A DNA stretch of 64,000 bases. Source: Clostridia bacterium. GTDB lineage: Bacteria; Bacillota; Clostridia; Christensenellales; Borkfalkiaceae. The stretch is taken from positions 56,959 through 120,958 of the forward strand of contig JAFTKC010000002.1 of the NCBI GenBank assembly GCA_017456055.1, in the 5' to 3' direction. The notes beneath the pieces are model-generated. The model was not told the origin of the DNA and ran no database searches. It saw only the letters and a program-made list of their open reading frames with translations. Numbering within the stretch: the stretch's first letter is position 1; each line of letters starts with the position of its first letter. Below are positions 9,450 through 53,945 of the stretch, one piece after another. The translations under genes and the position numbers were made by a program.

Positions 9450-9457
9450 ACTTCCCT

Positions 9458-26719: not shown

Positions 26720-28093
<1,374 letters not shown>

Positions 28094-30419: not shown

Positions 30420-30425
30420 ACTATA

Positions 30426-31274
30426 TTAAATAAATGCAAAAACTGCGTAAATAAATGCGCCAGCAAAAGTTATTCCGTCAATTCTATCCATAACTCCGCC
30501 GTGACCAGGCATAATCTTGCCCATATCCTTTATACCCACGCTACGCTTAACAAAACTTTCAAACAAATCGCCAAGTTGAGAAATTATACTTCCTAAAACG
30601 CAAATTATAATAAAGAATACTAAGCCGTTCTTAAGTTTTAACGTTGCAACTTTATTAGTGAAAATAAAGTAAACGAGTATTCCACCCACAACTCCACCGA
30701 TAAGACCTCCAATTGCACCTGCAATAGTCTTTTTAGGGCTAAGGTTTGGGCAAAGTTTTTTTGCTTTTCCCTTTCTTATTTTATTGTATATAAAGCCAAC
30801 GAAATACGCAAACGTATCAGTTAATGGTGAAAGTACGAATATTAAAAGTAAGGCTATAAACCCTTTTTCCACCATAAAAGAGTTGCACTCCAATATAAAA
30901 AACAATAAAATTGACGGATAGAAAAATCCTAATAAATTAACGTCTTTCTTCTTAGAAAATATTAAAACCAACAATATTGTTAAAACTACGAACGCCACTG
31001 AAAAAGTAATAGTTAGTGGAAGAGAAAATCTATATTCGAAAACGTATTTGCTAACGGCGTAAAAAGGAACGGCTAAAACACCGAATATTAAATTTAATAC
31101 CCTTTCAATTTTACAAGTTCTATTTTTATACGCCCTAACCACTTCAAAAGTTCCAACGGCGCAAAAAAAACATATTAAAAGGGCAAAAATTCTATAGTCT
31201 ACAAACTCTCTTAGTAAAAAGAAAGCCACCATTATAGCAGTAAACACTGCTCCACTTATAACTCTCGTTAACAT
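30426..31274 (-). CDS. cdsA: Phosphatidate cytidylyltransferase
   Basis: 282 aa integral membrane enzyme making CDP-diacylglycerol. Several hydrophobic helices; the C-terminal CDP-alcohol signature is visible as SQLGDLFESFVKRSVGIKDMG followed by PGHGGVMDRIDG. The ATG follows the uppS stop directly. Confidence 0.94.
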   Translation of the reverse strand: MLTRVISGAVFTAIMVAFFLLREFVDYRIFALLICFFCAVGTFEVVRAYKNRTCKIERVLNLIFGVLAVPFYAVSKYVFEYRFSLPLTITFSVAFVVLTILLVLIFSKKKDVNLLGFFYPSILLFFILECNSFMVEKGFIALLLIFVLSPLTDTFAYFVGFIYNKIRKGKAKKLCPNLSPKKTIAGAIGGLIGGVVGGILVYFIFTNKVATLKLKNGLVFFIIICVLGSIISQLGDLFESFVKRSVGIKDMGKIMPGHGGVMDRIDGITFAGAFIYAVFAFI

Positions 31275-38320: not shown

Positions 38321-39745
38321 TTAATTGTTTTCTAATTTTCTTTGTATCAATATACTGATTTCTTTAAGTTCTAACGCATCCTTATGCCATTGTTCTAATG
38401 TTGTAAGCGATACATCATCTAATCCTTCGTTAACGTGACCTATTAGACGGTTACAAAGTTTAGAAAACTTTTTAGTTATTTCGTCAGACTCTAATGCTTT
38501 TGCTTTTTCACGTAAACCTTTAGTTGTAATATCGCCTGTAATCTCACGAATTGTTTTCCTTTTTGCTTCTAAATCTTCGTTATATTTCTTTACTTGCATT
38601 TTATGTTCAAACTGCAACAAGTCCGCATCGATTTGAATTAACTGTTCTATTGTGTAGTTTAATTCAGCGTTTGCTTGATATATCAAATTTAGTTGATATC
38701 CGCTTGCGTACTTTAAGAATGTTTTAGTAACAGTAACAAGCCAACCGTTAACAAGTCCACGCTCCATTAAATCCAATCCGTAAAGCGCAATTTCTTTTTC
38801 TTCTTTTTTGAGAAGTAAACTGTTTACAACTTTTTGAGCTTTTTTATTGGATACATACTTTAGCATAAACAATATCGACTTTGGTTTGAATTCTCCAATA
38901 GTTTTGTTCTCTAAAAGAAAATCAATAACCTTATCGCAAAGAATCGCATTCCCTTGATATGAAAGGATATCTTCTTTATATATGTATAATCCGTGAACTT
39001 TAGAAATAATGGTCTTTCTAACGCTATCATTTCTTATGAAGAAATGGTCTCCATTATCATAATAATAGTTGCGATTAGAAAAAAGATTACTAAGCGCAGA
39101 ATTGTTAAGAACTCTCCATCCATTTCCATCTACGTTGTCGTGAATTTTGCCTTGATAAGAATTTATATTGCCCAAATCTAAGCATAAAGATTCTTCAAAA
39201 ATTTCATTATCAATAGGTAAATAATCATTCAATAATCTAACCTTAATGTTTTCTTTTTCGTCAAAAGTTACCGAATATTGCTCAGGCTTAGTATCGTCTT
39301 TAACCGTTTCGATGCTCATATCAATGATTTCTTCATTAATCATAATGATTTGTGGGAGATTATTATATGTACCTAAATCACCTTGATAAATCTTTTTGTT
39401 ATATACCGATACGTTTAATTGCGGATAATACTCATAACGATTTTTTTCATCGATTTTAAGCGTCGGAATCATAGAGTTCGCCATAATCATAGAAAGTTGT
39501 TCTGCCGAAAAAGTTTTCACTCTTGCATAAATATTTCTAAAATGTTTGTTAAGGCTACCTTCTCCCGTAACATCGTCAATATAGTCAAACACGGTTTTTT
39601 CTTGATTCTTATCGTTTGCGGTTCTCAAAGCAAGACTGCAAATTAAATATTCGTCATACGTCGCTTTTTCAAAGGTATTATATTTGACTTTAATTTTCTT
39701 TATTTGTTTAGATAATTTTAATTTTAGGCTTACTTGTAAACTCAT
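38321..39745 (-). CDS. Unknown 475-aa protein coupled to the helicase
   Basis: I do not recognise the family. The protein is soluble-looking, with a beta-rich first half (about residues 75-260, many Tyr, Asn and Asp) and an alpha-helical second half. A charged coiled-coil-like stretch spans about residues 395-440. No enzyme motif is visible. The start is the ATG that follows GGAGGTATTGATT, inside the helicase gene, giving a 38-base overlap and probable translational coupling. The fixed pairing suggests that it works with the helicase, perhaps as an effector or adaptor. Confidence 0.75.
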   Translation of the reverse strand: MSLQVSLKLKLSKQIKKIKVKYNTFEKATYDEYLICSLALRTANDKNQEKTVFDYIDDVTGEGSLNKHFRNIYARVKTFSAEQLSMIMANSMIPTLKIDEKNRYEYYPQLNVSVYNKKIYQGDLGTYNNLPQIIMINEEIIDMSIETVKDDTKPEQYSVTFDEKENIKVRLLNDYLPIDNEIFEESLCLDLGNINSYQGKIHDNVDGNGWRVLNNSALSNLFSNRNYYYDNGDHFFIRNDSVRKTIISKVHGLYIYKEDILSYQGNAILCDKVIDFLLENKTIGEFKPKSILFMLKYVSNKKAQKVVNSLLLKKEEKEIALYGLDLMERGLVNGWLVTVTKTFLKYASGYQLNLIYQANAELNYTIEQLIQIDADLLQFEHKMQVKKYNEDLEAKRKTIREITGDITTKGLREKAKALESDEITKKFSKLCNRLIGHVNEGLDDVSLTTLEQWHKDALELKEISILIQRKLENN

Positions 39746-42218
39746 AATCAATACCTCCATCAAACGTTATACTTTGTCCAAATCTCTTAATATCGTCAAT
39801 AATATCTGCGAAATACCTTCTTTTCCCACCCGTAGATACCTTCATATCGATATTGGAAAGAGTAGTAGGATTGCCGAAGATAAAAAGCTTGTCGCGCGCT
39901 CTACTCATAGAAACGTTAATTCTTCTAAAATCGTTTAAGAAATTTCCTCTTGACATATCGGTTACAACCGTATTAACTAAAACGATATCAGTTTCTCTGC
40001 CTTGGAAAGCGTCAACAGTATCAATTTCAAAACTCTTAAACGTTTTTCTTGCCGTATTAATAAGCTCTCTATTTTCTCTTTGGAATTTGTCGATTTGTGC
40101 GCCATAAGGGAAAATTGCTGATACGGAAACCTTTTCAGGATTCAACGTGTTTTCTAAAAGCATTTGTAGAATTTCTCTCGTTGCTCTTAATTCTTCAACG
40201 TTATAACGTGATGTTCCTTCGGTTGCTTCTTTACCGTTTTTAACGTCTACAAAGAAAACGTCTTTATCATTAAATATTTGATATTTATTACTAAACTGAA
40301 CTTTGCTAGGCTTTACTTTTTCACGCATACCGATAAGTTCCCTGTTGTAGAAGATGTTATAAGCGTTAAGCACGGGAGCAACCGAACGATAATTAACGTT
40401 AAGAGTAACGAGTCTGCCAACTTTCTTTGCTTTTTCAAGCGTTTTAGCAAATACTGACTCTTCGTATGTCTTCTTTAATTTCTCGAACATATCCTCGTTA
40501 TATGCAGTAAGTTCTTCAACTTCTTCTTTTTGGAATTCAAGAAGAGGAGCAAGTTGGTAATCATCGCCAACCATAATAATTTTGCTAACATAAGGAAGAT
40601 ATCTTAAAACTTCGGTTATCGGACATTTAGAAACTTCGTCAATAATAAGCCAATCATAACCTTCAAAAAGTTCTAATCCTTTTTTACCACCGATAGCACT
40701 AGTTGTTGTGGTTGCTCCAATTACGGAATAATCAGACATTTCTACGCTTTCAGAAAATCTAAATTTCTTTTCTCCACTAAAGTTAGCCATATCTTGCAAG
40801 ACTTGACTTGCTAAACTTCCATTTCTAGCGCGTCTATTATGCTCGTTAAACTTCTTCGCCCACGTTTTATAAATAGTCGTATCAATCTCTTGACCAGAAT
40901 ATTTATTGCGTCGATTCGTAATACGATTAGGAATAATGGAGTCATAGTTTTCCATTATTTCGTCTAATACGTTATCAATCGCAACGTGCGTTTGAGAAGA
41001 AATTACAACTTTTTGCTTTAATTCTTTGGTTATATACTGCACAATAGCGTTAATAACGTAGGTTTTTCCTGTTCCGGGAGGACCTTTTATAAGACTTACA
41101 GGCGAGCCATCGGTTGCCATTAAAAATGCTTGTTTTTGAGACTCATCTAAATGTTCAATATACTTGTCTTTTTTATCGTTAAATGTTCTTCTTGAACAAT
41201 TAGACGGCATTTGTTTATCACCGATTATGTATTCTAAAAGTTCAGCCGCAGCACCCGAAGCTCCTTGATTAATAAGACGAAGAGAATTGTCAATCGATTC
41301 TAATTTCACCTTTTGCCCCATATCGTAAAGGTGTAAATATTTTGAACTACTTACAATCGTTTTCGCTTCACCCGACAAAATCAAAAAATCTTCTTCAGTG
41401 TAAACATTTTTCAAATCAAAGCTGTTAAGATTTCTATCGTTTTTCTCGTTGATTTCGCTTTCGTCACTTAAATAAAGGTTATCTGAAAATCCTCTTATTT
41501 TCTTAATGTCTTTAATGCCGGCTTTAATTTTTACGTCAATAAGCCTTAAAACGCAATCTTGCAAATCGTTGGAAAGATTTTCAAATTTATAATCTTCTAA
41601 TTTGTAGCCGATTACGATACCGTTTTGGTTTTTAATAGCGTATTCTTCTTCAACCTCAATATCTTTTTGGTCAATAGGGACAAAATAATAAGGTCTTGAT
41701 ATGCTTTCAATAGGGTAATGAGCATTGTTGTTTAATTCACTTGACAAAGCCTTATAGAATTCAAATATTTCCATAAACTCATCAAACTGTGAAAGGTTAA
41801 AAACAAGATTAGGACTTTGAGATAGAGCAGAAAGAGTAAGTTGCATTCGTTCTATTGACATAGGATAATTTGTAAATAGGATTTCTGCATCTACTCCGTT
41901 TATATCCTTAAAATTAGAGCCCGCCTCATGAACGACTTTCTTTACATAAAATTCTCCACCAAATGGCGCTCTAAAAGAACAACCAAGATTACCTATTAAA
42001 ATAATACAGCCACCGCCAGGAATTTCATAAACTACTTTCACCCCGTTAATAGATACAAGTTGCCTTTGGTCTTTTCTATCATATCGTGTATCTAGGATAT
42101 TGGTTGTTAGTTTTACAAAATGACTTTTACCATCATCAATGACACCTAAAATTTCTTTTTCAAATTCTCTTTCTGGTTCATTAAAATAATTTGCTTTGGT
42201 TAATTTAAGTTCCAGCAT
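39708..42218 (-). CDS. SF1 (UPF1/DNA2-like) helicase of the mobile element
   Basis: About 836 aa. The first ~360 residues are an unrecognised, mixed region. The helicase core shows Walker A GPPGTGKT (about residues 379-386), motif Ia SSQTHVAIDNVLDE, Walker B LIIDEVSKCP, motif III VGDDYQLAPL, motif IV NVNYRS, SAIFPYGAQ, motif V DTVDAFQGRETDIVLV and motif VI VSMSRARDKLFI. This is the AAA_11/AAA_12 pattern of UPF1-like helicases, common in phage-defence cargo. I choose the second ATG (GGAGAAGAG before it) rather than the one 4 codons upstream. An element-specific promoter motif precedes it. Confidence 0.9.
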   Translation of the reverse strand: MLELKLTKANYFNEPEREFEKEILGVIDDGKSHFVKLTTNILDTRYDRKDQRQLVSINGVKVVYEIPGGGCIILIGNLGCSFRAPFGGEFYVKKVVHEAGSNFKDINGVDAEILFTNYPMSIERMQLTLSALSQSPNLVFNLSQFDEFMEIFEFYKALSSELNNNAHYPIESISRPYYFVPIDQKDIEVEEEYAIKNQNGIVIGYKLEDYKFENLSNDLQDCVLRLIDVKIKAGIKDIKKIRGFSDNLYLSDESEINEKNDRNLNSFDLKNVYTEEDFLILSGEAKTIVSSSKYLHLYDMGQKVKLESIDNSLRLINQGASGAAAELLEYIIGDKQMPSNCSRRTFNDKKDKYIEHLDESQKQAFLMATDGSPVSLIKGPPGTGKTYVINAIVQYITKELKQKVVISSQTHVAIDNVLDEIMENYDSIIPNRITNRRNKYSGQEIDTTIYKTWAKKFNEHNRRARNGSLASQVLQDMANFSGEKKFRFSESVEMSDYSVIGATTTTSAIGGKKGLELFEGYDWLIIDEVSKCPITEVLRYLPYVSKIIMVGDDYQLAPLLEFQKEEVEELTAYNEDMFEKLKKTYEESVFAKTLEKAKKVGRLVTLNVNYRSVAPVLNAYNIFYNRELIGMREKVKPSKVQFSNKYQIFNDKDVFFVDVKNGKEATEGTSRYNVEELRATREILQMLLENTLNPEKVSVSAIFPYGAQIDKFQRENRELINTARKTFKSFEIDTVDAFQGRETDIVLVNTVVTDMSRGNFLNDFRRINVSMSRARDKLFIFGNPTTLSNIDMKVSTGGKRRYFADIIDDIKRFGQSITFDGGIDYEFTSKPKIKII

Positions 42219-42260
42219 TCTCTTCTCCATTAATTTTATTGAAACGTTTCGTTCTTGGTA

Positions 42261-42292
42261 TTATATAGAAGCGATTTTTCGTAGACTTAACA
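42261..42292 (-). promoter_or_regulatory. Element-specific promoter motif P3 (helicase unit)
   Basis: On the minus strand TGTTAAGT (42285-42292), 16 bases, CTATATAA (42261-42268). It sits between the sigma-like gene and the helicase and repeats the motif found twice at 44694-44804 with exactly the same spacing. Transcription would start about 25-35 bases before the helicase ATG. Confidence 0.75.
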
Positions 42293-42294
42293 TT

Positions 42295-43173
42295 TTATTT
42301 CAATTTTTCTTTGAAATTTTTGTAAGTTCTACTTAAACTTTGTTCAGATACTCCACACAACACACCAATTTGCTTTGCGGTTGGCAATTCCCCGTTTTTT
42401 ACGTAATAATCAAAGGCTTCTTCGTTAAACAGTTTTTTATTCTCTAAAACTTGTCTTGCTTTATCTAAATCTTCATCACAAGCCTTGATAACTTCTACCG
42501 TTAAAAGCATTGAAAGTAATTTCTTTTGCCGTTCTTGAACGGATGCAAATACAACATCAATTCTTTCTACAAGCGCTGCAAAGGCTGATTCCTCAGCCAT
42601 TTTATCTTCCGCAGTTTTTTCGTGGCTTACTTGTAAATCAAACAATTCTATCTCGTCGCCGTCTTCGTTAGTAACGGTGCTTGATACAACAATAGCGTCG
42701 TTGTTTATACGAAGCAACTCTTGTAATCTAGTAAATTCAATATTAAGCGCTTTTGAAATTTTTTCTTGAACGGTGGAGTCGTTAATATCTAAGCCTTTGC
42801 TATTTGCAAGTGCAACAATTTTACGGATTAGCTTGTCATCCTCGCTTGCGACTCTAATACCTTGTCTCTTTTCTTCTATAATTTCTTTGGCTTTTGCAAT
42901 ATGTAAATCACGTTTCATAGAACTATTAAACAAATGCAAAAACTCGCCTTTACTTTTGTTGTAGTATTTTATACACTCAATAGCCGTTTCCATAAGAGTC
43001 ATACTATACGAATCTAACGGCTTATTGGGATAAATATATAAGCGGTAGTAATCCGTAAGAATTGTTAAAAAGTTATATCTTTCCGTCTTGTAGAGTGCAG
43101 GCGAACTCTCCTTGTCGATTTCAAAGAGAGGAGAATTATTTATTAAGTTTTCATATTCTTCTCTCGTAAACAT
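42295..43173 (-). CDS. Sigma-70-like factor of the mobile element
   Basis: 292 aa. A segment at about residues 52-92 (DSYSMTLMETAIECIKYYNKSKGEFLHLFNSSMKRDL) has the spacing of sigma region 2, where a helix, a K.YN..KG-type turn and an aromatic/basic helix contact core polymerase and the -10. The C-terminal helix-turn-helix PTAKQIGVLCGVSEQSLSRTYKNFKEKL (about residues 262-290) looks like region 4.2. The middle is acidic and helical. The similarity is remote, so it could instead be a generic HTH regulator. It lies between the CARF-like gene and the helicase, and a conserved promoter motif precedes both units. ATG after AGAGGTG. Confidence 0.65.
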   Translation of the reverse strand: MFTREEYENLINNSPLFEIDKESSPALYKTERYNFLTILTDYYRLYIYPNKPLDSYSMTLMETAIECIKYYNKSKGEFLHLFNSSMKRDLHIAKAKEIIEEKRQGIRVASEDDKLIRKIVALANSKGLDINDSTVQEKISKALNIEFTRLQELLRINNDAIVVSSTVTNEDGDEIELFDLQVSHEKTAEDKMAEESAFAALVERIDVVFASVQERQKKLLSMLLTVEVIKACDEDLDKARQVLENKKLFNEEAFDYYVKNGELPTAKQIGVLCGVSEQSLSRTYKNFKEKLK

Positions 43174-43183
43174 TCTTCACCTC

Positions 43184-43819
43184 TTATAAATCAAGCAAGG
43201 TGTCTAATGCTTTTACTGCGTCATCGGAAGATTTATACTCCATAGAATTAGTAACGCTGTTAAGATAGTAAAGAGGGGTCAAGTCATAAAGAACAGGGTT
43301 TACAGGCTTGGTTTTACCCATACCGCTACCGTCATCAACAAAATCTACTTTACCATAAACAATGTTTTTGATTTTTGCCTTAAAGAATTTTTCAGCAAAG
43401 TTCATAACGGCAAACATAATGATAGGAAGTGGCTTTGGTCCATAAGTAACGTCGCCAATAATTTCAGCGTTCTCTTCAAGCTTTGCCACCATATCACGAA
43501 GCAACGTTTCGTGCACGTCACGAGTTTCTTCAAAAGGTGTTGCAAGTGTGATATATTCGATATCAGCGCCGATAGAACGATTAATATCATTGAGTTCTTT
43601 TTGGAACTTGCCGGCATTGATTGCGCTATTGCCTTCAATATCTACTTTTGAAAGGAGAACGACTTTAACTTTTTCACCTTTCTTCATTGTTTTCGCAAGC
43701 ACCGAGTTAACGGGGAAAATAGTTTCGCCGTCATACTCAATCGTTACGTTGCCATCTACTTTATGCTTAAAACCGTGTAATTCCTTCTTCATAGGAAGGT
43801 CACTAAATACTATCTTCAT
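43184..43819 (-). CDS. CARF-like (TM1812-type) nucleotide-sensor protein outside a CRISPR locus
   Basis: 211 aa. The second half has the pattern of the TM1812/Csx CARF family: an ITLATPFEE strand/turn (about 90-98), DVTYGPKPLP (123-132) in place of the D[IV]THGFR ligand loop, a hydrophobic helix, IVYGKVDF (153-160) and LYDLTPLYYL (177-186) in place of the family's DLTPF block. CARF domains bind cyclic oligoadenylates made by type III CRISPR systems or related signals. No effector domain (HEPN, nuclease, HTH) is fused. No cas gene or CRISPR array is in the window. It probably senses a nucleotide and acts through the sigma-like neighbour, but this is inference. Confidence 0.6.
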   Translation of the reverse strand: MKIVFSDLPMKKELHGFKHKVDGNVTIEYDGETIFPVNSVLAKTMKKGEKVKVVLLSKVDIEGNSAINAGKFQKELNDINRSIGADIEYITLATPFEETRDVHETLLRDMVAKLEENAEIIGDVTYGPKPLPIIMFAVMNFAEKFFKAKIKNIVYGKVDFVDDGSGMGKTKPVNPVLYDLTPLYYLNSVTNSMEYKSSDDAVKALDTLLDL

Positions 43820-43822
43820 TTT

Positions 43823-44320
43823 TTATTTATTCTCCTTCTTTATTCTTTCCTTAAATATCTTTTCGCATTCTTCGTTTGATTTTGCATTATATAACGCTAA
43901 TACAATTTGCTCAAACTCTGAAACGGTAATTTTACTGCTGTCAATCTTCTTTTTTACTAACTCACAAATTCTAATATATCGACTTTCGTCTTTAAGCATT
44001 TCATAGAGTTTCTCTTTATTATTCTTGAGCTCTCTTTGAATGTCTGCATATTGTCGAATCGTAATCGTATCACGATTATAGTTTCTAAAAATATAATGAT
44101 TACGAATTTTGGACCAAAGTTCCTCTTTTTCGCATTCTATCATTTCATCAATGTTAGTTTCTTGAATATCAATATCATATTCTTTCGGAAGCTCATAATC
44201 TTTTGCAATTTGAGGTATGCGTTCTTCTGCTTCCTGACGACTATTAACGTTTACGTATTCTTCAACCCAAGCACATCCGTCTCCATCGTGGTCAAAACTG
44301 ATTCTAATATTATAATACAT
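43823..44320 (-). CDS. Unknown 165-aa protein of the CARF operon
   Basis: Unrecognised. The N-terminal 50 residues (MYYNIRISFDHDGDG....WVEEYVNVNSRQEAEERIPQIAKDY) look like a small alpha-beta domain, and the rest is charged and helical with many Lys and Glu. No catalytic motif is visible. I start at the ATG with GGAGGTGGCGTA before it, which overlaps the stop of the 114-aa gene (TAATG); an earlier in-frame start would lie inside that gene. Stop is 3 bases from the CARF-like ATG. Confidence 0.7.
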   Translation of the reverse strand: MYYNIRISFDHDGDGCAWVEEYVNVNSRQEAEERIPQIAKDYELPKEYDIDIQETNIDEMIECEKEELWSKIRNHYIFRNYNRDTITIRQYADIQRELKNNKEKLYEMLKDESRYIRICELVKKKIDSSKITVSEFEQIVLALYNAKSNEECEKIFKERIKKENK

Positions 44321-44664
44321 TACGCCACCTCCCAAGCATAATCTCGCCATCTAAAGGTGTTGCGTTTATAAGGATTTTTCTTTTTAGTTTCTAACTTCTT
44401 CTTGGTCTTTTCGTAGATAGCTACGTCGTATTCTTTTTCAATATAACGAATATAAGAAGGAAGTTTGTCTAAAGTCTTTTTTACTGCCGTGCTATGTACG
44501 CTCGAATAATTATTGATAGCGTGCACGCCTACGCCATTACGGAAAAATTCTTTGTTGCTTTTTCTAAAGTCTTGTTGGAAAAGGAAATATTCTTTTCCTC
44601 CTACTTTTACGAAAAACGATTGGGTTGCTTTTGCCGTTGTCTTACAAAATACTGTTGCTTGCAT
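44320..44664 (-). CDS. Unknown 114-aa first gene of the CARF operon
   Basis: Unrecognised basic protein. The conserved-looking part is FFVKVGGKEYFLFQQDFRKSNKEFFRNGVGVHAI, suggesting a small beta domain, followed by a helical stretch and a Lys/Arg-rich tail (KKKLETKKKNPYKRNTFRW) that could bind nucleic acid. It is the gene nearest the tandem motif promoters P1 and P2, with AGGAG 7 bases before the ATG. Confidence 0.7.
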   Translation of the reverse strand: MQATVFCKTTAKATQSFFVKVGGKEYFLFQQDFRKSNKEFFRNGVGVHAINNYSSVHSTAVKKTLDKLPSYIRYIEKEYDVAIYEKTKKKLETKKKNPYKRNTFRWRDYAWEVA

Positions 44665-44693
44665 TTTTATTCTCCTATTTTTGTTTTGTACCT

Positions 44694-44725
44694 TTATATA
44701 GAAACCTTATTTTTTGAACTTAACA
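44694..44725 (-). promoter_or_regulatory. Element-specific promoter motif P2 (CARF operon, proximal)
   Basis: On the minus strand TGTTAAGT (44718-44725), 16 bases, CTATATAA (44694-44701). The expected start point is about 23 bases before the ATG of the 114-aa gene. Confidence 0.75.
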
Positions 44726-44772
44726 CTTTTTTGAAAAGTTTTTATAAAATTTCTGTTTAGGTCCTTGTGTCA

Positions 44773-44804
44773 TTATATAGGAGCGTAAAAAACAAGACTT
44801 AACA
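44773..44804 (-). promoter_or_regulatory. Element-specific promoter motif P1 (CARF operon, distal)
   Basis: On the minus strand TGTTAAGT (44797-44804), 16 bases, CTATATAA (44773-44780). It is a tandem copy 79 bases upstream of P2. It lies just past the fic stop, so it starts a new unit. Confidence 0.75.
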
Positions 44805-44814
44805 GTTTTAGAAA

Positions 44815-45864
44815 TTAAATTTTATCAATTTTAACGTAATAAGTTGCACGGCTTGCACCTTTCTTTTCTATAAAGCCTTCTTTAGCGAGTTTTTTAAGCG
44901 AACTTTCGACAGAACTATTACTAAGCGACGGACACATAGCAACGATATCCATTTTGGTAAACTTACCGATTTTATTAGCAACTGCTTTTCTAACCATATC
45001 AAGTGCAGAATCGCTTTCACTTACAAGTTCCATTCTATCTTCAAAATCTCTATATGCTGCAATAATAGTGCTAAGCAAATACTTGATAAAAGGAACAACG
45101 TCTTCGTTTCCTTCATCCCAACCAGCTTGTGCTTTTTCTAATGCGTCGTAATATGCGTTCTTGTTCTTCGCAATTTTACTTTCAAGTGAGATGTACTTAC
45201 CAACCATATATCCATTTCTATATAAAAGTAGCGTTGTGAGTAATCTGCTCACTCTACCATTTCCATCTGAAAATGGATGTATGCACAAAAAATCGTGAAT
45301 AAAAATAGGTATTAAAATAAGTGGGTCAACTTCACACTTTGAAATAGCGATATTAAACTCATTGCAAATCTTATCTATTGCTACAGGGGTTTCGTAGGGC
45401 GCAGGGGGAGTAAAGAGAATACTTTCCTTTCCATTTTCAGTTAAGGTGATATAATTTTGCACGTTCTTGAATTTACCACCGATACTTTTTCCTGAGTGAC
45501 TATACAAAATCTTATGAAGTTGCAAAATATAGTTTGTGGTCATAGGAATATACTCAAAACTTTCGTGAATAACGTTAAGTACGTCTCTATAACCTGCAAT
45601 TTCTTCTTCATCACGATTTTTAGGCATAGTCTTATCCGACAAGAGTTGCTTTAATCTTGTATTCGTTGTTCTTATGCCTTCAATATCATTTGACGATTCC
45701 GTACTTTGGACTTTTGCAATTTCCACAAGTTTATTAAGTTTTTCGGGTTGTTGCTTTAAGTAAAGCTCTTGCTTTCCTTTTGCTTCGTGAATAGCCGTAA
45801 GATAACTTACTATTTCGGAATCCCATTTTAAGTCTTTTAGTAAGGAGTAATTAAAATCTCTCAT
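44815..45864 (-). CDS. Fic-domain protein with N-terminal inhibitory helix and winged-helix tail
   Basis: About 349 aa. Fic motif HPFSDGNGRVSR (about residues 196-207), with the catalytic His, the Asp/Asn for metal and phosphate contact, and Arg. An N-terminal inhibition helix SNDIEG (about 58-63) fits the [ST]xxxE[GN] autoinhibitory motif of class II Fic proteins. The C-terminal part (about 290-349) looks like a winged helix, as in Fic regulators that repress their own gene. Such enzymes AMPylate a target protein using ATP. I start at the ATG preceded by AGAGGTG; the GTG 3 codons upstream is less likely. It is a separate unit with its own promoter. Confidence 0.92.
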   Translation of the reverse strand: MRDFNYSLLKDLKWDSEIVSYLTAIHEAKGKQELYLKQQPEKLNKLVEIAKVQSTESSNDIEGIRTTNTRLKQLLSDKTMPKNRDEEEIAGYRDVLNVIHESFEYIPMTTNYILQLHKILYSHSGKSIGGKFKNVQNYITLTENGKESILFTPPAPYETPVAIDKICNEFNIAISKCEVDPLILIPIFIHDFLCIHPFSDGNGRVSRLLTTLLLYRNGYMVGKYISLESKIAKNKNAYYDALEKAQAGWDEGNEDVVPFIKYLLSTIIAAYRDFEDRMELVSESDSALDMVRKAVANKIGKFTKMDIVAMCPSLSNSSVESSLKKLAKEGFIEKKGASRATYYVKIDKI

Positions 45865-45896
45865 TAGATACACCTCTTTATTTTTATTTCTCCTAA

Positions 45897-46263: not shown

Positions 46264-47460
46264 TTACTTAAAACATACGTAAAAGGTTGCCGACGTAGAT
46301 GGTTCTATACCAGCGAAGTCTTTTTCTAAGTATTTTACCGCCGAACGCTTTTTCTTTCTTACGATTTCCTTGGCCTTTTTAATAATTCTATAATAGTTGG
46401 TATCAATACAAATTTGACTTACGATATATTTTGCAAGTTCTTGATTATAGCATCTAAAACCAACCGTGAAAGAGCCCATCTCCTTAGGATCGTAATTGAT
46501 TGCCGTTTGAGCAAAAACGTTTACTATTTGCTCTTCGTCGTATCTTAATAAATACGCCTTTCTAAAACGGAAATATTCGTGGTTAGTGGAAGTAAATTCC
46601 TCTAAGTCAGGATAGAACTTTTCGTTTGGCGTATGGTAAGGCACTTGCGATTGATCGGTTAACTGAAATTCCTTTAGTGGAACGCAACAGAAATCGTATC
46701 TAATATCGTTTTTACCCGTTTCACCCGTATTAGTGTTAGACCTATCTCCCCAAGTGGCGTCTAGATAGTAGCAATATTTACCTATTTTTAAGGCATTGAA
46801 AGCGTGTCCGCCCCCGGCAACTCTATTACTCGAAACGTATCCACAACTTATACCTACCGATTGAAGTAAATATTGCATTGCCGCAGCGTATCCTGCGCAA
46901 ACAACTTTATGTTCTACTATTGCGCTGTAAAGAGAGCGCAATCTATCGTCTTTAGTCGTGTCGCTATCTACGTGTGACGCAAGCCCTTTTCCGTCGTAAT
47001 CTAGAGTTAAAATTAGTCTACGATAGATTGTAATTAACGCATCGTAAGGCTTAGTTCTTTTAGTTATGCCACGAGTGAAAAACTTAGCGTGTTTTTTTAG
47101 TTCTTGTCTTTTTCTCTCAATTTGCTTAACGTCTAAAACTCCGTTTTCATCAACGCACCTATAGGAAAACTTAACTTGATCACCTGTCCAAGAATACCCG
47201 TTAATCCAGAAGATTTCAGGATAATCGTTTAGTACGTAGTTGAATATTCTTTCCAAATCGTCGTCGTTATTAACACCGTATCTTGGGAAAAATTCCGTTT
47301 CGTACGTCATTGCTCTTCTAACCATTTCGTTATAGAGTTTAATTTTTGGATTAGTATCTTCGTCTTCTTCTTTAGGCAATATTTCATACCTTTCTTTTTC
47401 GATTAAAGAAGCATCGGATTCATTGTCTTTTTTTCTAAAATTACTTTTAATTTTTCCCAC
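46264..47460 (-). CDS. Transglutaminase-like cysteine protein, last gene of the tubulin/vWA operon
   Basis: 398 aa, cytosolic. The transglutaminase-like core has Cys188 in VVCAGYAAAMQYLLQ, His219 in GGHAFNALKI and Asp234 in YYLDATWGD, an intact Cys-His-Asp triad. The N-terminal 45 residues are highly charged; the C-terminus (about 330-398) is a separate alpha/beta segment. There is no signal peptide, unlike many extracellular bacterial members. It may crosslink or cleave proteins, perhaps those of the same operon (inference). GTG start, chosen because GGAGG lies 8 bases upstream. 13 bases after the 1,416-aa gene. Confidence 0.85.
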   Translation of the reverse strand: MGKIKSNFRKKDNESDASLIEKERYEILPKEEDEDTNPKIKLYNEMVRRAMTYETEFFPRYGVNNDDDLERIFNYVLNDYPEIFWINGYSWTGDQVKFSYRCVDENGVLDVKQIERKRQELKKHAKFFTRGITKRTKPYDALITIYRRLILTLDYDGKGLASHVDSDTTKDDRLRSLYSAIVEHKVVCAGYAAAMQYLLQSVGISCGYVSSNRVAGGGHAFNALKIGKYCYYLDATWGDRSNTNTGETGKNDIRYDFCCVPLKEFQLTDQSQVPYHTPNEKFYPDLEEFTSTNHEYFRFRKAYLLRYDEEQIVNVFAQTAINYDPKEMGSFTVGFRCYNQELAKYIVSQICIDTNYYRIIKKAKEIVRKKKRSAVKYLEKDFAGIEPSTSATFYVCFK

Positions 47461-47473
47461 AATCCTTACCTCC

Positions 47474-50400
47474 TTAATCTAAATTTTCAGGTTCTTCAGT
47501 CGAAGCAACTTCTTCTACAGACTCTACTGGATCTTCTTCAGTTCTCTCGTCGGTAGATAATTTATCCTCACCTTCAGTCACCGATTGACCTCTTAAGTAT
47601 CTCTTCCAGAATCTTGGAATCTTGTTTGGATCATATAACTCTACGGGATCAGTTCCGTCGCTTGGATCTTCAGGTTCGCCTTGAGAAGACATACCGGCAA
47701 AGGTACTTCTCATAAACTCGAAACTAGTTGCCTTTCCGTCCGCTCCTTCACCAACGAACGCTCTAATTCCATTGATATCGGCGATTACGTAGCCCTCAAG
47801 TTTAGATTCAACCTCTGTTGCCTTTTCAGTATATCCAACGTGATTTAAGTATTTTAATTCTTCGTACTCAACTTGTGCTTCGGCAAGTGCAATCAAGAGT
47901 TCGTTATCGTTTTGCCACAACTCTATTGTCGCTCTAATAACCGCCCTTTCAATGCTCTTTGCAGGAGTTTCTCGTTGTACGTAGATAACTCTATTGTCAA
48001 CGTCTACTCTATACGCTACACCCGACTTACTGAAGTCTTGATTACTGAATTTTCCATCCAAAAACTTAACTTCTGCCACGCCGAATAAAATTTCAGGATA
48101 CTTTTCAGTTAAATATGCTCTTGCAGTACTTGCTGCTGCATCTAATTCTTCTTGAGTTCTAACACTAGTTTTATCACACTCTGCGCAGACTAATCTACCG
48201 TCTTCAAACTTAACGTATCTTCCACTCTCTAGTATCTTTCCACAGAACGAACAACGTTTAGGTTCTTCATTTGCAATCTCACTACCTGCAGTTTCATAGT
48301 CTTGAACACCGTCTTCACTTAAGATAATGTTGTAATCTTCTAGTAATTTACAGCAATTCTCAACGTCGAAACATTCAGGCAATTTATCATCGCCAAAATA
48401 TATATAGTGTTTTAGGTTTGGACGAAGTTTTAACCAGTTTAAGTAAGAGTAAATGTTTGCCAAGAATTCGTGCATATAGTGGCCCAATCTGTCGTAGAAC
48501 CAATCTAAAGCACCTACGTCTTCGATACAATCGTTAAAGAATATGAATTGCATCTTCTTTTCGTCGGTTTCTTTTTCACTTTCATCCATTAGATATGGAT
48601 ATAGCGCTTTTACTCTTTCAATGTAGTTTGAAGGCTCTTTTTTATCGTTAAATTCTAACGGCTTTTCTAAAACAGGACAAATTGCTATTTGACGATATGC
48701 TTTTGGGAACACCGTGCGAATAAATTCGTTAAATACGGCGCTTAACAACAATCTCATATTGTCGTTGCACTTCATACGAGTAGACAAGGTCACTCTTAAA
48801 ATCTTGCCGTTTTTAACGTTTCTTGCATTTTCTTCAACCACGCTCTTAGATAAGTGTGGATTACCTACTGCCCCTTTAACGAAATCTAAGGTTTGACAAT
48901 TAGATAGCAAGGTGTAGAATCCATATGTTTCACCACGGAAATCTGCACTTCTCATGCTAACCCTGATTTCTTCGAGCATACCGTGTGTCTTATTAAACAC
49001 ACCGTCTTCGCCAACGACTTTCTCGTCGTTAACCTTATACCTACGCAAGAAAATCGTGTCAAGACAATTTTTGAAAGTCACGTTTTCGTGTCTTAAGAAT
49101 ATAATCTTTCTATCTTCCGAAATATGCCCGATTTCGTATTCTGTATTATTAAATAATATGCTTTGTCCTACCACGTATTCAAGATTTACTCTTGATGGGA
49201 AGGTATCTAATTCTCCAATAATTTCGTCGTTAATGCAAAGTTTTACCCTTTCGTTGCACTCGAATACGTTATCGAATACTTCCTTAACTCGCTTAAAGGT
49301 TATTCTCTTTTCTCTAACCATAGTAAAGCCGTCTTGCTCTGCAGAATCTACGATTAGATAATAATCTTTTACGTTCTTAGCAATACTCTTTGAAATTGGA
49401 GTATCGTATTTATCGCATAACGCAGCGAGCAAGTATCCCGCTAAAATCTCTACGTTAATTTCAGAGAATTCGCCTAGTTTAACTCCCTTCGCACAATATG
49501 GGCATAGTGGAGCGTCCCCACGCTTTTCAGCAACCGAAATAACCGTTTTCATTCTATCTTCAAATTCGAAGATGCTCATTCCGTCGCCCGAAGTAGCGTC
49601 ACAGAAAATTCTTAAGAAACTTAGTTTTGATCTTTCTGCATGCTCGGTGACTCTAGGTTGAATAAACGCCGAACGGTTGATATATTCTTCCGAAAGCATT
49701 CTATCCATAAAGTATTCGCGCAACAAATATGGATGACTAATTATGTGCACGATTGACTTCTTAGAGCCTCTAAATCTAGTGCTAGTATATAAAGCAGCAG
49801 CCAAGTTACACTTTTCGTCCGAATAAATCATGTAGTTTATTTCGGGAGTTGGCTTATAGAATTGGTTTATTTCTATATTATGCTCGGTCAATATATCCTT
49901 ATCGGCTCTATCTAGTGGTGATGAAGTTAATACTCTAACACCGTCTACCCCGTGTACTACCGCTTGTTCTGCGATAATGGTTTCTAAGCCGGTTAAGGTT
50001 TGTCCGTGCTTATTGTATACTACGTTTCTCTTGCTTTCCTTGTTCCACAAGGTAAATTCAACTGCTTCGTTTTCATTTGCGCTTGAATAACTCAAAACTT
50101 CGTCTACACAGAAGAATCTTGGTAAACTTGCAGATGCAAAACCACGAAGTACGGCTTGTGATAAGAATATAAAGCGCACCCTTTCAGAAGTTGCCTTTTG
50201 TAATCTTATAGCCATTACGGGACATAGATAACTTTCAAGTTCTACTATTCTATCAGCGTCGATAAATACTGCGTTGCATACCTCTTCAAAGAAAGAAGGA
50301 TAATTCTCTACGATATTATCGTCTTTGAAATCTTCTGGGGTTGCAATTAAAACATCTGCTTGGTCTAAACGCTCGTCGCTAGTATATACACGCCAAGTAC

Positions 50401-51724
50401 AATCTTCACTTGCTCCCGTGAGTTTTATCAAAGCGTCGCCAATATATTTTCTTAATGCAACCATTCTGCTACGGTCTGATAAAATAAATATCATTCTAGA
50501 ACCCGATAGCAATCTAGTATAAGTATAGTGAATTAAGTATTCGCCTAATTCCGAATAGAAAGACGCGCAGAAATACACGTGATTATTGTTATACGCAGCG
50601 TCTAGGCACTCCATATAACTTTGAACGATTCTTCCCGACTTTTCTTTCATTTTATTTTGAATATAGTCGAGCGAACTTGCATACGGACGATTGCTACATA
50701 CGTATTCTATATCCGCATCTTTTCCCGCTTCAGGATAATAACGAAGATTGTGGTCTGCGTCAAAACGTCTTTGAAGTTCTAAGTGGAGAGCACGAAGTTT
50801 GTCATCTCTCTCTTTAGCCTCTTCCTCTTCTGTCTTTTCTTCAGGCTTAACTTCCCTTTCTTCGTCCTTTTTAACTTTGGTATGTAATACGTTGCAAATT
50901 TCTTGCAAGAATATAAGCGAAATAAACGGATAAATATACCACTCTTGCACCTTAAATACGTTTAGCAGTATATTGTACATCCACTCTGGAGCAGTAAAGA
51001 ATATTGCGTATAGTAAAACTATAAAGAGCAAGGTGTAGAGAATCTCTACAAGGTAAATAAAGCATTGCAATACTCTTTCAACACGCATTGCCCAGCCCTT
51101 TGCATACTCTAGGTTTGGACCATCAAAGAAAATTGACCAAAATCCGTTGGTTGCGGCTTCCTTAACCGTTTTAATTTGGTCGTCGCTCTCTTCTTTTTCT
51201 TCCTTGCCTTCTTCCTTAACTAAAACTCTCTTATCTTCTTCAGGTTCAGGTTGTTCGATAGGCTCTTCGGGCTTTTCTTCGCCCTTTTTATTCTTTTTGT
51301 TTTTTCTTTTCTTTCTCTTTTGTTTTTTGGTAAATCCGTACGCTGGGTCAAGAATACATTTTTTCAATAACCCCTTTAAGATTGCGTATGAATAAATAAT
51401 CAATACGTTTGCAATTACGGCTAAAATTACGAAAGAAACGAAGTCAAAAGTACCGGAAGTATCAACCTTGCCAACCAAGTTGCTAATAAATTCGATTGAT
51501 AAAACCCAATCTACTAAACTACTAGTTGCGCTAGTTAATCCAATCATTAAAACGCACTCTAAAACGGCAAGGATTATATACCAAGCGTTCTTTCTGTTGT
51601 GCGGTTCGTCGTATCTTAACGCATGTATGGTTGAAACTTTTCTTGCCCTTGCAGCAAAAGGCATCATTGGGAAAAGTAATATAAAGGTTATCAATAAAAT
51701 CAATAAGAATTTTAGTGCATCCAT
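47474..51724 (-). CDS. 1,416-aa membrane protein with degenerate helicase-like domain, zinc finger and peptidase-like tail
   Basis: Membrane segments fill the first ~290 residues (around 3-22, 48-70, 90-118, 215-250 and 265-285), broken by a Lys/Glu-rich loop. A middle region (about 360-560) resembles a SF2 helicase fold: RMIFILSDRSRMVALRKYI, ADVLIATPEDF, VFIDADRIVELESYL near 485, then RFIFLSQ. There is no Walker A lysine, so it is probably inactive. CPYC and CSFC/CAEC pairs (the latter at C1158/C1161 and about 1179/1182) form a zinc finger. After it, a segment like the DA1-type zinc peptidase has lost its HExxH (RATIELWQ). Acidic C-terminus. Large scaffold, role unknown. It starts 1 base after the previous stop. 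Confidence 0.7.
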   Translation of the reverse strand: MDALKFLLILLITFILLFPMMPFAARARKVSTIHALRYDEPHNRKNAWYIILAVLECVLMIGLTSATSSLVDWVLSIEFISNLVGKVDTSGTFDFVSFVILAVIANVLIIYSYAILKGLLKKCILDPAYGFTKKQKRKKRKNKKNKKGEEKPEEPIEQPEPEEDKRVLVKEEGKEEKEESDDQIKTVKEAATNGFWSIFFDGPNLEYAKGWAMRVERVLQCFIYLVEILYTLLFIVLLYAIFFTAPEWMYNILLNVFKVQEWYIYPFISLIFLQEICNVLHTKVKKDEEREVKPEEKTEEEEAKERDDKLRALHLELQRRFDADHNLRYYPEAGKDADIEYVCSNRPYASSLDYIQNKMKEKSGRIVQSYMECLDAAYNNNHVYFCASFYSELGEYLIHYTYTRLLSGSRMIFILSDRSRMVALRKYIGDALIKLTGASEDCTWRVYTSDERLDQADVLIATPEDFKDDNIVENYPSFFEEVCNAVFIDADRIVELESYLCPVMAIRLQKATSERVRFIFLSQAVLRGFASASLPRFFCVDEVLSYSSANENEAVEFTLWNKESKRNVVYNKHGQTLTGLETIIAEQAVVHGVDGVRVLTSSPLDRADKDILTEHNIEINQFYKPTPEINYMIYSDEKCNLAAALYTSTRFRGSKKSIVHIISHPYLLREYFMDRMLSEEYINRSAFIQPRVTEHAERSKLSFLRIFCDATSGDGMSIFEFEDRMKTVISVAEKRGDAPLCPYCAKGVKLGEFSEINVEILAGYLLAALCDKYDTPISKSIAKNVKDYYLIVDSAEQDGFTMVREKRITFKRVKEVFDNVFECNERVKLCINDEIIGELDTFPSRVNLEYVVGQSILFNNTEYEIGHISEDRKIIFLRHENVTFKNCLDTIFLRRYKVNDEKVVGEDGVFNKTHGMLEEIRVSMRSADFRGETYGFYTLLSNCQTLDFVKGAVGNPHLSKSVVEENARNVKNGKILRVTLSTRMKCNDNMRLLLSAVFNEFIRTVFPKAYRQIAICPVLEKPLEFNDKKEPSNYIERVKALYPYLMDESEKETDEKKMQFIFFNDCIEDVGALDWFYDRLGHYMHEFLANIYSYLNWLKLRPNLKHYIYFGDDKLPECFDVENCCKLLEDYNIILSEDGVQDYETAGSEIANEEPKRCSFCGKILESGRYVKFEDGRLVCAECDKTSVRTQEELDAAASTARAYLTEKYPEILFGVAEVKFLDGKFSNQDFSKSGVAYRVDVDNRVIYVQRETPAKSIERAVIRATIELWQNDNELLIALAEAQVEYEELKYLNHVGYTEKATEVESKLEGYVIADINGIRAFVGEGADGKATSFEFMRSTFAGMSSQGEPEDPSDGTDPVELYDPNKIPRFWKRYLRGQSVTEGEDKLSTDERTEEDPVESVEEVASTEEPENLD

Positions 51725-51725
51725 A

Positions 51726-53894
51726 TTATTCTCCTCCTCTACCTTTTCCTACGAGCACAGACTCGATTGCATCAAGTGAAAAAATCTTATAAACTTTGTT
51801 CTCAGGCGAACGAATAGACCTTAGAAGGTTAAATTCTCCGTCTACGCTAGTCGAATCGTCGATAGTTGGGTGAATTCCAAGATTGTTTAGAATTCCGCTC
51901 AAGCAGTTCTCTACGTCTTCTAGAATAACTCTATGCTTGTTAACGTTTTTATCTTTTAGAAGATTTGCTTGATATAATAAGGTGATTTGTCTTATCTCGT
52001 ATCTAAATTCTTCTATGTTGATTAAATCTACTTCGTATCTTTTCTTGAGTTGCTTTAGAGCAACCTTTTTCTTCGCTAGACAATCTTTATAACACTCTAG
52101 CATATCGTTTTTGGCTTTATTTAGTTTCCTTATCGTTGGAAGCAACGTAAAGAATAGTGAAAATAAGAATAATCCTGCAAAGATTGCCGACGCCAACACG
52201 TACACCATTATCGTGCCGAAGTTGTATTCACTAACCGATTTTAAGATTATGAAAGGAACTATCATTATAGCAACCGTTATTAGCAAGAAAATGATATCCC
52301 CTGCGATATTTCTATTGAGTATTTTCTTTGCCTTTAGGTAGTTTTCATAATACTTATCTGCTTTCTTTTGCTCTTCTTCAAAGTTATTAACTACGTATTC
52401 TGCCTTTAAGGTTTCACCCATAAGTTTAGAAATTTCGTCGTACTTTTCGTTAATTACGAAATCGTACTCTTGCTTTGAAGGGCACATATTAGTAGTCGCA
52501 AGCGAATCAGAACGGATAAGTTCGTCAAATCTATCGTCAACGTCTTTTTCGTTCATTTGGTCACGCTTAAATAAGTATTCGCTTAAAATACGGTCGAATT
52601 CTTCTTTATCTTCGTCGATAAATTCGCCCTCTCCTTGTTTACCCATCTTCATTATGAGTTTATATTGATCTTCAATAGAATTTCTTAGTTTAGAATCCTT
52701 AACTACTACTGCAGTTCTTTCTTTTTTGAAGTCTTCTTCAGGAGTGGATTGCTTTTTAACGTCAATCTTAATTTCTTTTTCAGAAATTTGCTTTAACGAG
52801 TAATATAAAGATTTATTTTCTTTAGCCAAAGTTCTTGCGCAAACTATTTTATTCCAAGCCGTTATTAGAAGGTTTTTCAAAGAGTCTGGATCAACTCCAC
52901 TAATTTCAATATCACCCTCTTCTCTAATACTATCTTCTCTCTCGTAAAGTCTAATTAAATGGAGAGAAAGCGCTAGATTATCAAAAGCCGCTCTCGCTAC
53001 GCTTCCACCAACGCTCGTATGATAAAAGTGACGACGAATTTTTCTCGTTTTGCCTGCTCTTTCACAAAATGCTCTAAAGAAGGTGCTTTGAGATGCTCCC
53101 TCGCCCTCGTTTTCTTCAACTCCGTACGGGAAATCTTTCACTCTATATTCTAGTGAAAGTTGTCTCGTACAGTATAAACTGAAAGCAGTGTAGGCGTCTT
53201 CCTCCACCATCTTTCTAACCATTTTTTTGCTTGGACGCACGTTGTCCACAAAATCCATTTTTGCTTGGATTTTTTCCACTAATTCGGCTTTGCCTTTCTT
53301 AGTTTCCGTTTCTGCTAATAGATCGTTTAATTCTTCTATTTCTTTTTTAGCCTTTAAGTATACTTCTTCAGCGTATACTTTTCCGTCGCTATCTATGTAA
53401 ACGTCTACTTCTTCACTTACGTAAGTCTTCTTTTTACCAACTAAAGACGATTCTACCGGTGAAATTATTTGATTTACTTGATCTTCAAGGTTGTCTATGT
53501 TGTCGATTACTTCAAAGTCGCCACTTTTAATATAGAAAACGTCGCACTCGGCAGCGTAATATTCTTGCTTTTCTAAAACGTAAAGCAAGTTGTCTTTAAG
53601 GTACGCTTCAATATATGGCAAATAAAGGCTACATTCAACACCTTCGTCCTTGCCATAGCCGTGTCTACCATAAGGCGCGCGAATACGATTAAATCCGTAA
53701 AAGTCAATTAAAACGGCAAGTCTAAACTCTTCCGCTTCAATTGCACCTTGTTTATTCTTAATAAAATCTACACAATCTTCAACTCTATCTAGACTGCAGT
53801 TTAACCATTGAATTTTGTTGTATCCAACTAATCTAAACAATTGGTCGCTGTCAAACGTTTTGTTTTCAGACGTGTTTATTACGTAAGTTACCAT
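51726..53894 (-). CDS. 722-aa membrane protein of the tubulin/vWA operon
   Basis: Unrecognised. The N-terminal 320 residues are soluble, partly coiled-coil (about 175-215). The centre is charged (about 325-500) and helical. Two hydrophobic helices (about residues 531-552 and 562-585) form the only membrane anchor, and the last ~130 residues are basic and helical. Both ends would face the same side of the membrane. It ends GKGRGGE, and its stop shares the region that holds the ribosome site of the 1,416-aa gene, so the two are coupled. It may link the tubulin-like polymers to the membrane. Confidence 0.75.
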   Translation of the reverse strand: MVTYVINTSENKTFDSDQLFRLVGYNKIQWLNCSLDRVEDCVDFIKNKQGAIEAEEFRLAVLIDFYGFNRIRAPYGRHGYGKDEGVECSLYLPYIEAYLKDNLLYVLEKQEYYAAECDVFYIKSGDFEVIDNIDNLEDQVNQIISPVESSLVGKKKTYVSEEVDVYIDSDGKVYAEEVYLKAKKEIEELNDLLAETETKKGKAELVEKIQAKMDFVDNVRPSKKMVRKMVEEDAYTAFSLYCTRQLSLEYRVKDFPYGVEENEGEGASQSTFFRAFCERAGKTRKIRRHFYHTSVGGSVARAAFDNLALSLHLIRLYEREDSIREEGDIEISGVDPDSLKNLLITAWNKIVCARTLAKENKSLYYSLKQISEKEIKIDVKKQSTPEEDFKKERTAVVVKDSKLRNSIEDQYKLIMKMGKQGEGEFIDEDKEEFDRILSEYLFKRDQMNEKDVDDRFDELIRSDSLATTNMCPSKQEYDFVINEKYDEISKLMGETLKAEYVVNNFEEEQKKADKYYENYLKAKKILNRNIAGDIIFLLITVAIMIVPFIILKSVSEYNFGTIMVYVLASAIFAGLFLFSLFFTLLPTIRKLNKAKNDMLECYKDCLAKKKVALKQLKKRYEVDLINIEEFRYEIRQITLLYQANLLKDKNVNKHRVILEDVENCLSGILNNLGIHPTIDDSTSVDGEFNLLRSIRSPENKVYKIFSLDAIESVLVGKGRGGE

Positions 53895-53945
53895 GCTTTT
53901 CCCTTTATTTTATCGATTGTTTTTCTATAATAATATATTATATCA

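Follow-up and report, generated by a model that had tools for sequence, protein, structure and literature searches.

Sigma-based immune responses, in those parts of the literature that we consulted, depend on sigma factors that a protease sets free in type III CRISPR systems (PMC11229360; PMC12751052; PMC10028731). In CalpL-CalpT-CalpS, as described in the sections drawn on here, a SAVED-Lon protease releases a sigma factor (PMC11229360; PMC12751052). We analyzed a 64,000-nt stretch (hereafter the window) of a gut Clostridia bacterium of the Borkfalkiaceae. It carries a proposed mobile element encoding a stand-alone CARF protein next to a 292-aa sigma-70 relative, together with three copies of a two-box motif, TGTTAAGT-N16-CTATATAA. 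We propose, with a probability of roughly 0.78, that this motif is the core promoter of the dedicated sigma factor of the same element; sequence comparison gives strong support to such a pairing of sigma factor and promoter. Like Calp, this locus would tie a cyclic-nucleotide sensor domain to a sigma factor of its own and to an antiviral response at the level of transcription (PMC11229360; PMC12751052, in the parts consulted); unlike in Calp, the sensor is a CARF without a protease, and no Cas10 was found in the host. No SAVED-Lon protease was found in the operon, whose proteins gave no protease match in three libraries (two for the 165-aa protein), and its family-less 114- and 165-aa proteins may include a CalpT-like inhibitor. 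As far as the consulted text goes, CASP-sigma/Csx30/Csx29 of type III-E shares with this locus a dedicated sigma factor, a few predicted promoters in its own locus, and a suggested positive autoregulation of defense genes, but that sigma factor is ECF-like and freed by a protease upon RNA recognition (PMC10028731), whereas the one described here has region-3 similarity and lies beside a CARF. Similarly, the RtcR-type CARF regulators of CoCoNuT superoperons are encoded 5' of defense operons and proposed, in the portion consulted, to activate transcription (PMC11090510). RtcR is a CARF-ATPase-HTH coactivator of sigma-54, whereas here a CARF is combined with a sigma-70 relative and putative private promoters. 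We did not meet a CARF-sigma-70 pair in the consulted parts of the literature on CARF, cyclic oligoadenylate, or defense with sigma factors; an earlier mention elsewhere is possible. The main components of the locus are the following.

44773 to 44804, minus strand: P1, predicted to be the distal of two promoters serving the CARF-sigma operon; motif exact, with AAA at 44806-44808 and the +1 A expected at 44768
44694 to 44725, minus strand: P2, predicted to be the proximal of these two promoters; motif exact, with the +1 A expected at 44689
44320 to 44664, minus strand: 114-aa gene, first in the operon; no family over cut-off
43823 to 44320, minus strand: 165-aa gene; no family, ORF open to 175 aa
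43184 to 43819, minus strand: 211-aa stand-alone CARF of the TM1812/CARF2 type (PADLOC CARF2--CARF)
42295 to 43173, minus strand: 292-aa sigma-70 family protein by profile searches, proposed reader of P1-P3
42261 to 42292, minus strand: P3, predicted promoter of the helicase unit; exact motif, predicted +1 A at 42256
39708 to 42230, minus strand: SF1 (AAA_11/AAA_12) helicase, MkoA-like in its helicase part

Exact matching recovers the three copies with their 16-base spacers (42261-42292, 44694-44725, and 44773-44804, each on the minus strand) as an earlier note on this DNA had reported them, with P1 and P2 in tandem before the 114-aa/165-aa/CARF/sigma operon and P3 before the helicase unit. 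P2 lies 29 nt upstream of the start codon of the 114-aa gene, and P3 starts 2 nt downstream of the sigma stop codon. With no mismatch allowed and spacers of 15-18, dinucleotide shuffles of the window predict 0.017 copies against the 3 observed, a number reached in none of 60 shuffles. With up to three mismatches and N16, five sites are observed for 1.94 expected, and 6 of 100 shuffles reach five; as this loose motif is unremarkable, the weight of the observation rests on its exactness. The genome-wide search advocated in the earlier note, performed on the 1,385,150 bases of the host genome (26 contigs, 93.74% complete), returned only these three exact copies, all inside the element, no copy with one mismatch, and three more with two. 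The similar three-mismatch counts in shuffles could be taken to indicate that the motif is a chance or copied stretch of DNA, a possibility to which we give next to no credit. Exact copies are far above the shuffles and occur in only 3 of 398 family genomes, all carriers of the CARF-sigma pair, which refutes a chance origin; a duplication is refuted by P1, P2, and P3 having nothing in common in their spacers and flanks.

The 292-aa protein is, by sequence comparison, a sigma-70 relative, as the earlier note had anticipated for 42295-43173. A profile of eight homologues aligned by hhalign with 19 SigA proteins with a probability of 93.7 and an E value of 1.9e-7 over residues 67-280. These 19 proteins were picked by a SigA signature from the 19 best loci of an unguided profile search. 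The homology extends over regions 2.3-4.2 of SigA and places the 292-aa protein in the sigma-70 family. That unguided search, made in six frames with the same profile, gave matches in 154 of 299 phylum genomes, the query's own among them; outside the query, the 19 best hits fall in SigA-like ORFs with lengths of 363-424 aa, and the lower ones listed include ORFs of about 260-290 aa. Of the 22 PDB sequences that the profile retrieves with E values no higher than 1, 15 bear the name of a sigma factor (best E 3.6e-4), the rest being a repeat protein (8vd6) that scores marginally better than the best sigma factor, designed helical proteins, and TFIIB. Mean pairwise identity among six homologues is highest in the helix-turn-helix of region 4.2 (88%, compared with 69% for the whole protein and 39% for the linker), as expected if recognition of the -35 box was held constant.

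Homologues of the sigma factor were identified at six closely related loci: L007 (the record of genome G044; 87% identity to that of the window), L008 (in G201; 83%), L018 (G158; 76%), L009 (in G202, labelled as a Gastranaerophilales bin; 63%), L010 (in G203; 59%), and L112 (G622; 57%). Two distant CARF-sigma pairs are found on a Treponema saccharophilum plasmid (L024; CARF 50% and sigma 23% identical) and on an unannotated fecal scaffold filed as phage (L025; 38% and 33%). A phage origin of the pair was rejected, as no relative of either protein was found among viral_contigs; the exact motif is present in 49 viral stretches, which were taken as background without a computed expectation.

The seven close loci, including the window, contain 16 sites with at most two mismatches and spacers of 15-18, of which 14 were counted as copies: three each in the window and L007, two each in L018, L112, and L010, and one each in L008 and L009. 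Nine of these are exact, four have one mismatch, one has two, and all lie shortly upstream of gene starts. A counted copy precedes the CARF-sigma operon in the six loci holding that region (L008 begins within the operon) and the next unit in six of seven; in the exception, L009, the helicase gene follows the sigma gene by 28 bp with no copy between them. In L018, the second copy lies upstream of an ADP-ribosylglycohydrolase gene, and the helicase is reduced to a fragment. Between the end of the gene-nearest copy and the start codon lie 14-42 nt; the 14 nt are counted to a TTG in L018, and an ATG slightly further on would fit there as well. The 16-base spacing, previously described as fixed, is found in five carrier loci, but L009 and L010 have 17. 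Throughout the relatives the boxes persist while the flanks and most of the spacer change, and the three otherwise unrelated sites of an element share them.

Alignment of 11 copies, from which the three of L007 were left out as near duplicates of those of the window and for which one spacer base was removed from the N17 copies, leads to AAA-N-TGTTAAGT-N16/17-CTATATAA-N3-Y-A. The conserved part extends beyond the two 8-mers of the earlier note, to the AAA upstream and the Y-A downstream. In all 11 copies the AAA (the bases from 4 to 2 upstream of the -35 box), GTTAAG, CTATA-A, and the A five bases past the -10 box are invariant, and this last A is preceded by C or T; the spacer positions are mostly free, some being A- or T-rich. 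The Y-A resembles a -1/+1 initiator, and the whole motif looks like a core promoter in its anatomy. A site serving only as an operator would have no need of this Y-A.

This anatomy bears on a different explanation, that the sites are housekeeping sigma A promoters and their extra constant bases an operator for the CARF or the 114-aa protein. Cut as TTAAGT-N17-TATATA, the motif has a sigma-A-like spacing, with hexamer matches of 3/6 and 4/6, and in L009, L010, and L112 the CARF is better conserved than the sigma factor (82-88% against 57-63% identity to the proteins of the window). However, a sigma-70 consensus scan (at least 4/6 per hexamer and 9/12 overall) called 11 sites in the region, for 10.2 in shuffles, and none on the hexamers of P1-P3; one called same-strand site (42303-42274) overlaps P3 without using its hexamers. 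Both boxes, the AAA block, and the Y-A start are conserved jointly, as in a core promoter, and a sigma-70 relative is encoded in the same operon. We consider the sigma A explanation unlikely, and the earlier preference for a special factor over a weak sigma-A promoter agrees with the scan.

Among the 398 family genomes, the motif with N16 or N17 is found exact in only three, G000 (three copies), G158 (two), and G044 (three), always inside the element and not at unrelated housekeeping genes, the contrary of which the earlier note had considered damaging. A CARF profile run over the same 398 genomes retrieved these three carriers and a fourth, G622, which has one 1-mismatch and one 2-mismatch copy at both expected places. 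With a looser pattern, the seven carrier genomes hold 18 sites compared with 2 for a reversed control (G904 was left out of the counts as seemingly the same genome as G203, with an identical contig number and coordinates that fit). Fourteen are the promoters of the elements, a proportion on which we rejected a broad regulon; the four elsewhere are one within a fabG-like ORF, one between ORFs in G202, and two near-identical ones in G203.

A matrix of 25 positions was trained on the 11 copies, to which the fecal scaffold L025 contributed none, and was then run blind on L025 and eight other loci, each compared with 150 shuffles. L025 has two outlier sites, scoring 23.6 (27312) and 21.7 (12955), the third best reaching 10.4. 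These scores are reached by 0 and 1 of the shuffles, respectively, and no shuffle holds two so high; the lowest left-out score among the training copies is 19.8 (L010, before the helicase). The site at 12955 precedes a homologue of the 114-aa gene, then the CARF and sigma genes, which is the position of P1. The site at 27312 precedes a 109-aa ORF, with a LexA-like gene (peptidase S24 match) further on. As the earlier note would have it, homologues of the 292-aa gene with 57-87% identity have the conserved motif next to them; in our comparison it can still be recognized where the sigma factor is 33% identical, and it is absent from view where the identity is 23%. In L019, L020, L021, and L022, the best matrix site is matched by at least 14 of 150 shuffles, and near the weak sigma matches of G048, G052, G059, and G139 the motif is not above chance. 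A two-box repeat search in L025 and L024 returned mostly 15-of-16 pairs. One 16-of-16 pair in L024, found in none of 100 shuffles, was rejected as a promoter, since it belongs to a longer repeat present at six places on the plasmid and three on a second plasmid. Copies of this dispersed Treponema saccharophilum repeat stand before the CARF-sigma pair and before a leucine-rich-repeat gene (L024:14879-14912 and 30396-30429).

The partner of the sigma factor matches the PADLOC CARF2 model PDLC01820 over residues 1-210 of 211 (E 5.2e-77); TIGR02221 matches at 1.6e-8, below the cut-off of that model, and Pfam gives no match. This full-length match to a stand-alone model places the protein in the CARF superfamily (CARF2/TM1812), with ligand binding predicted. 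The motif D-x-T-[YF]-G-x-K is found in 7 of 8 aligned CARFs and T-x-G-x-K in all 8. Profile matches uphold the CARF, sigma, and helicase labels of the earlier note. A 209-211-aa CARF directly precedes the sigma gene in each of the six close relatives, and the two genes are adjacent in all nine loci holding both (the seven close carriers, L024, and L025), while the other operon genes vary. Homologues of the 114-aa gene occupy its position in L007, L010, L112, and L025, and different genes do so in L018 and L009. The L025 homologue is 43% identical over 60 residues; its gene (L025:13026-13349) has an in-frame TAG at codon 62. The 165-aa gene of the earlier note, whose ORF is in fact open to 175 aa, has a homologue in L007 and none, or another gene in its place, in L009, L010, L018, and L112.

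Stand-alone CARFs of this kind bind cyclic oligonucleotides in type III CRISPR immunity, which makes ligand binding by the CARF the most likely gate. Alternatively, the 292-aa sigma factor might read the sites while the CARF is no gate, but a ring nuclease that destroys the signal or an unrelated sensor in a shared operon. Crn1 is a CARF protein. Stand-alone ring nucleases Crn1-3 occur in type III CRISPR systems, according to the part consulted of PMC12409355. Among the nine carrier genomes or records, Cas10 palm is over the cut-off in none and an SMODS match occurs in one (G202). The Cas10 palm PF22335 has no match in eight of them (G000, G158, G044, G622, G201, G203, L024, and L025) and one below the cut-off in G202. 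The Csm1 model TIGR02578, searched in eight, gave nothing over its cut-off, with short matches below it in G044 (one) and G202 (six) and none in G000. A Cas10 in the same genome, as part of a type III CRISPR effector module, was not found, an absence that is not proof given the 77-84% completeness of G158, G044, and G622 and the one record available for each of L024 and L025. Of 398 genomes sampled from the phylum, 25 gave a CARF match, including that of the window; the best three others lie in ORFs of 211-226 aa, which indicates stand-alone CARFs, and have no clear sigma neighbor. Those of L106 and L107 share a cluster with a Cas10-like gene, and the third genome (G599; L108) has a Cas10 palm match on another contig. 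In L106 (CARF and next gene, 8257-9941), the gene beside the CARF shows a weak alignment to the sigma profile (E 1.6e-4, probability 50.6). Its counterpart in L108 (CARF and next gene, 7081-8588) does not align with that profile and is unsupported as a sigma factor, with one NCBIfam sigma match at E 0.051, and the one in L107 is matched by neither Pfam nor NCBIfam. Set against these points, the adjacency of CARF and sigma in nine of nine loci, despite changing operon genes, speaks against a CARF without gating function, a reading that we consider rather unlikely, though likelier than the sigma A explanation.

The best reading is, in our view, a ligand-gated, autocatalytic sigma switch for exchangeable defense genes. 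The sequences themselves show the motif, where it stands, its conservation along with the sigma factor, and the homologies to sigma-70 and CARF proteins; from these we infer the protein that reads the motif, the start site, the feedback, the CARF gating and its CARF-sigma contact, the ligand, and the defense function. Region 4 of the sigma factor would read TGTTAAGT as -35 box and region 2 would read CTATATAA as -10 box, transcription beginning at the conserved A five bases past the latter. A ligand bound by the CARF would lead it to free or activate the sigma factor. This would fire P1 and P2, giving more CARF and sigma in a self-amplifying manner, and P3, giving the helicase unit, the probable effector of a defense likely directed at phages. 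The positive feedback proposed in the earlier note is supported as far as promoter position goes (a copy before the operon in six of six close loci that include this region); the likely CARF-ligand gate, the defense context of the relatives, and the A-block and initiator of the promoter are additions to that note.

Several observations weigh against the dedicated sigma switch. Pfam and NCBIfam match the 292-aa protein to sigma factors below cut-off only, and no Cas10 that might supply cyclic oligonucleotides was found in the host. The spacing varies between 16 and 17, and two dropped 2-mismatch sites do not fit, at window position 12758 (N17) and at L009 13685 (N16), the latter inside the HamB-like ORF described below. 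The motif is not above chance in L024, L106, and L108, where at least 14 of 150 shuffles match the best site, and a single isolated site (score 17.5, reached by 1 of 150 shuffles) is seen in L107. Finally, as the motif adjoins the gene, co-inheritance accounts for part of their co-occurrence.

The remaining features at the edges of the circuit are the following.

38321 to 39763, minus strand: 474/480-aa protein of unassigned family, adjoining the helicase
44815 to 45873, minus strand: Fic protein (SoFic-like, PADLOC E 9.9e-44), directly upstream of P1
35366 to 37027, minus strand: large serine recombinase (library match), at the edge of the proposed mobile element

The helicase probably starts about 12 nt inside the ORF, at a codon preceded by a Shine-Dalgarno sequence. 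Residues 255-818 match PADLOC MkoA (E 2.7e-78), which relates the protein to the Mokosh systems (MkoA/MkoB). Mokosh type I is defined by an MkoA with a kinase and an MkoB. Unlike in that system, the helicase of the window has no kinase domain match, only the helicase part of MkoA being found, and its 474-aa partner no MkoB match. This partner belongs to no known family of Pfam, NCBIfam, or PADLOC, and it or its homologue adjoins the helicase at each of the six close loci where the latter is intact, the partner gene being split across two frames in L010 (10133-11577). An MkoB identity was rejected for lack of a PADLOC match and of similarity to a weakly MkoB-like protein of L025.

The clusters of other relatives encode an exonuclease-like protein in L007 and an ADP-ribosylglycohydrolase in L018. 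Two distant loci carry a ThiC-like radical-SAM protein and a 185-aa partner inside the cluster (L008:2482-4196, Pfam E 3.1e-98; L009:10778-12477, by similarity only), an unexpected occurrence of a vitamin-synthesis enzyme in a probable defense operon. Near the element of L009 (13609-16630), a helicase resembling HamB of Hachiman (PADLOC E 4.8e-55) is accompanied by a 234-aa partner. In L025, BrxL is encoded upstream of the first promoter, behind which follow a weakly TerY-like VWA protein, a kinase, an MkoA-like helicase, a weak MkoB match, and a match to the candidate-defense model PDC-M26A. By our reading, L025 resembles a CoCoNuT superoperon, as these are described in the consulted part of PMC11090510, headed by the CARF-sigma pair. 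It is from such defense genes in the relatives that a defense role of the unit in the window is suggested. The Fic protein is probably not part of the regulon; a Fic homologue likewise lies upstream of the operon in L007. Beyond the Fic gene of the window, a transglutaminase-like protein and three very long proteins of 722, 910, and 1416 aa are encoded in one direction as a large, separate cluster (window 46264-56678).

We regard it as an even bet that these elements represent a portable immune circuit free of CRISPR, in which a mobile head of CARF and cognate sigma factor governs unrelated defense genes placed behind its private promoter. Such a head would provide an orthogonal, self-amplifying regulon working in new hosts without host promoters, and its cargo would include the helicase unit, the ADP-ribosylglycohydrolase, the ThiC-like radical-SAM enzyme, and the CoCoNuT-like cluster. 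If this is true, a CRISPR-free CARF-sigma pair whose promoter is resolved to single bases and shared by distant hosts would constitute a further immune design. Ligand sensing by the CARF would be testable with a simple reporter, and an orthogonal sigma-promoter pair would be gained. The promoter itself would serve as a DNA handle for finding the defense genes of such circuits.

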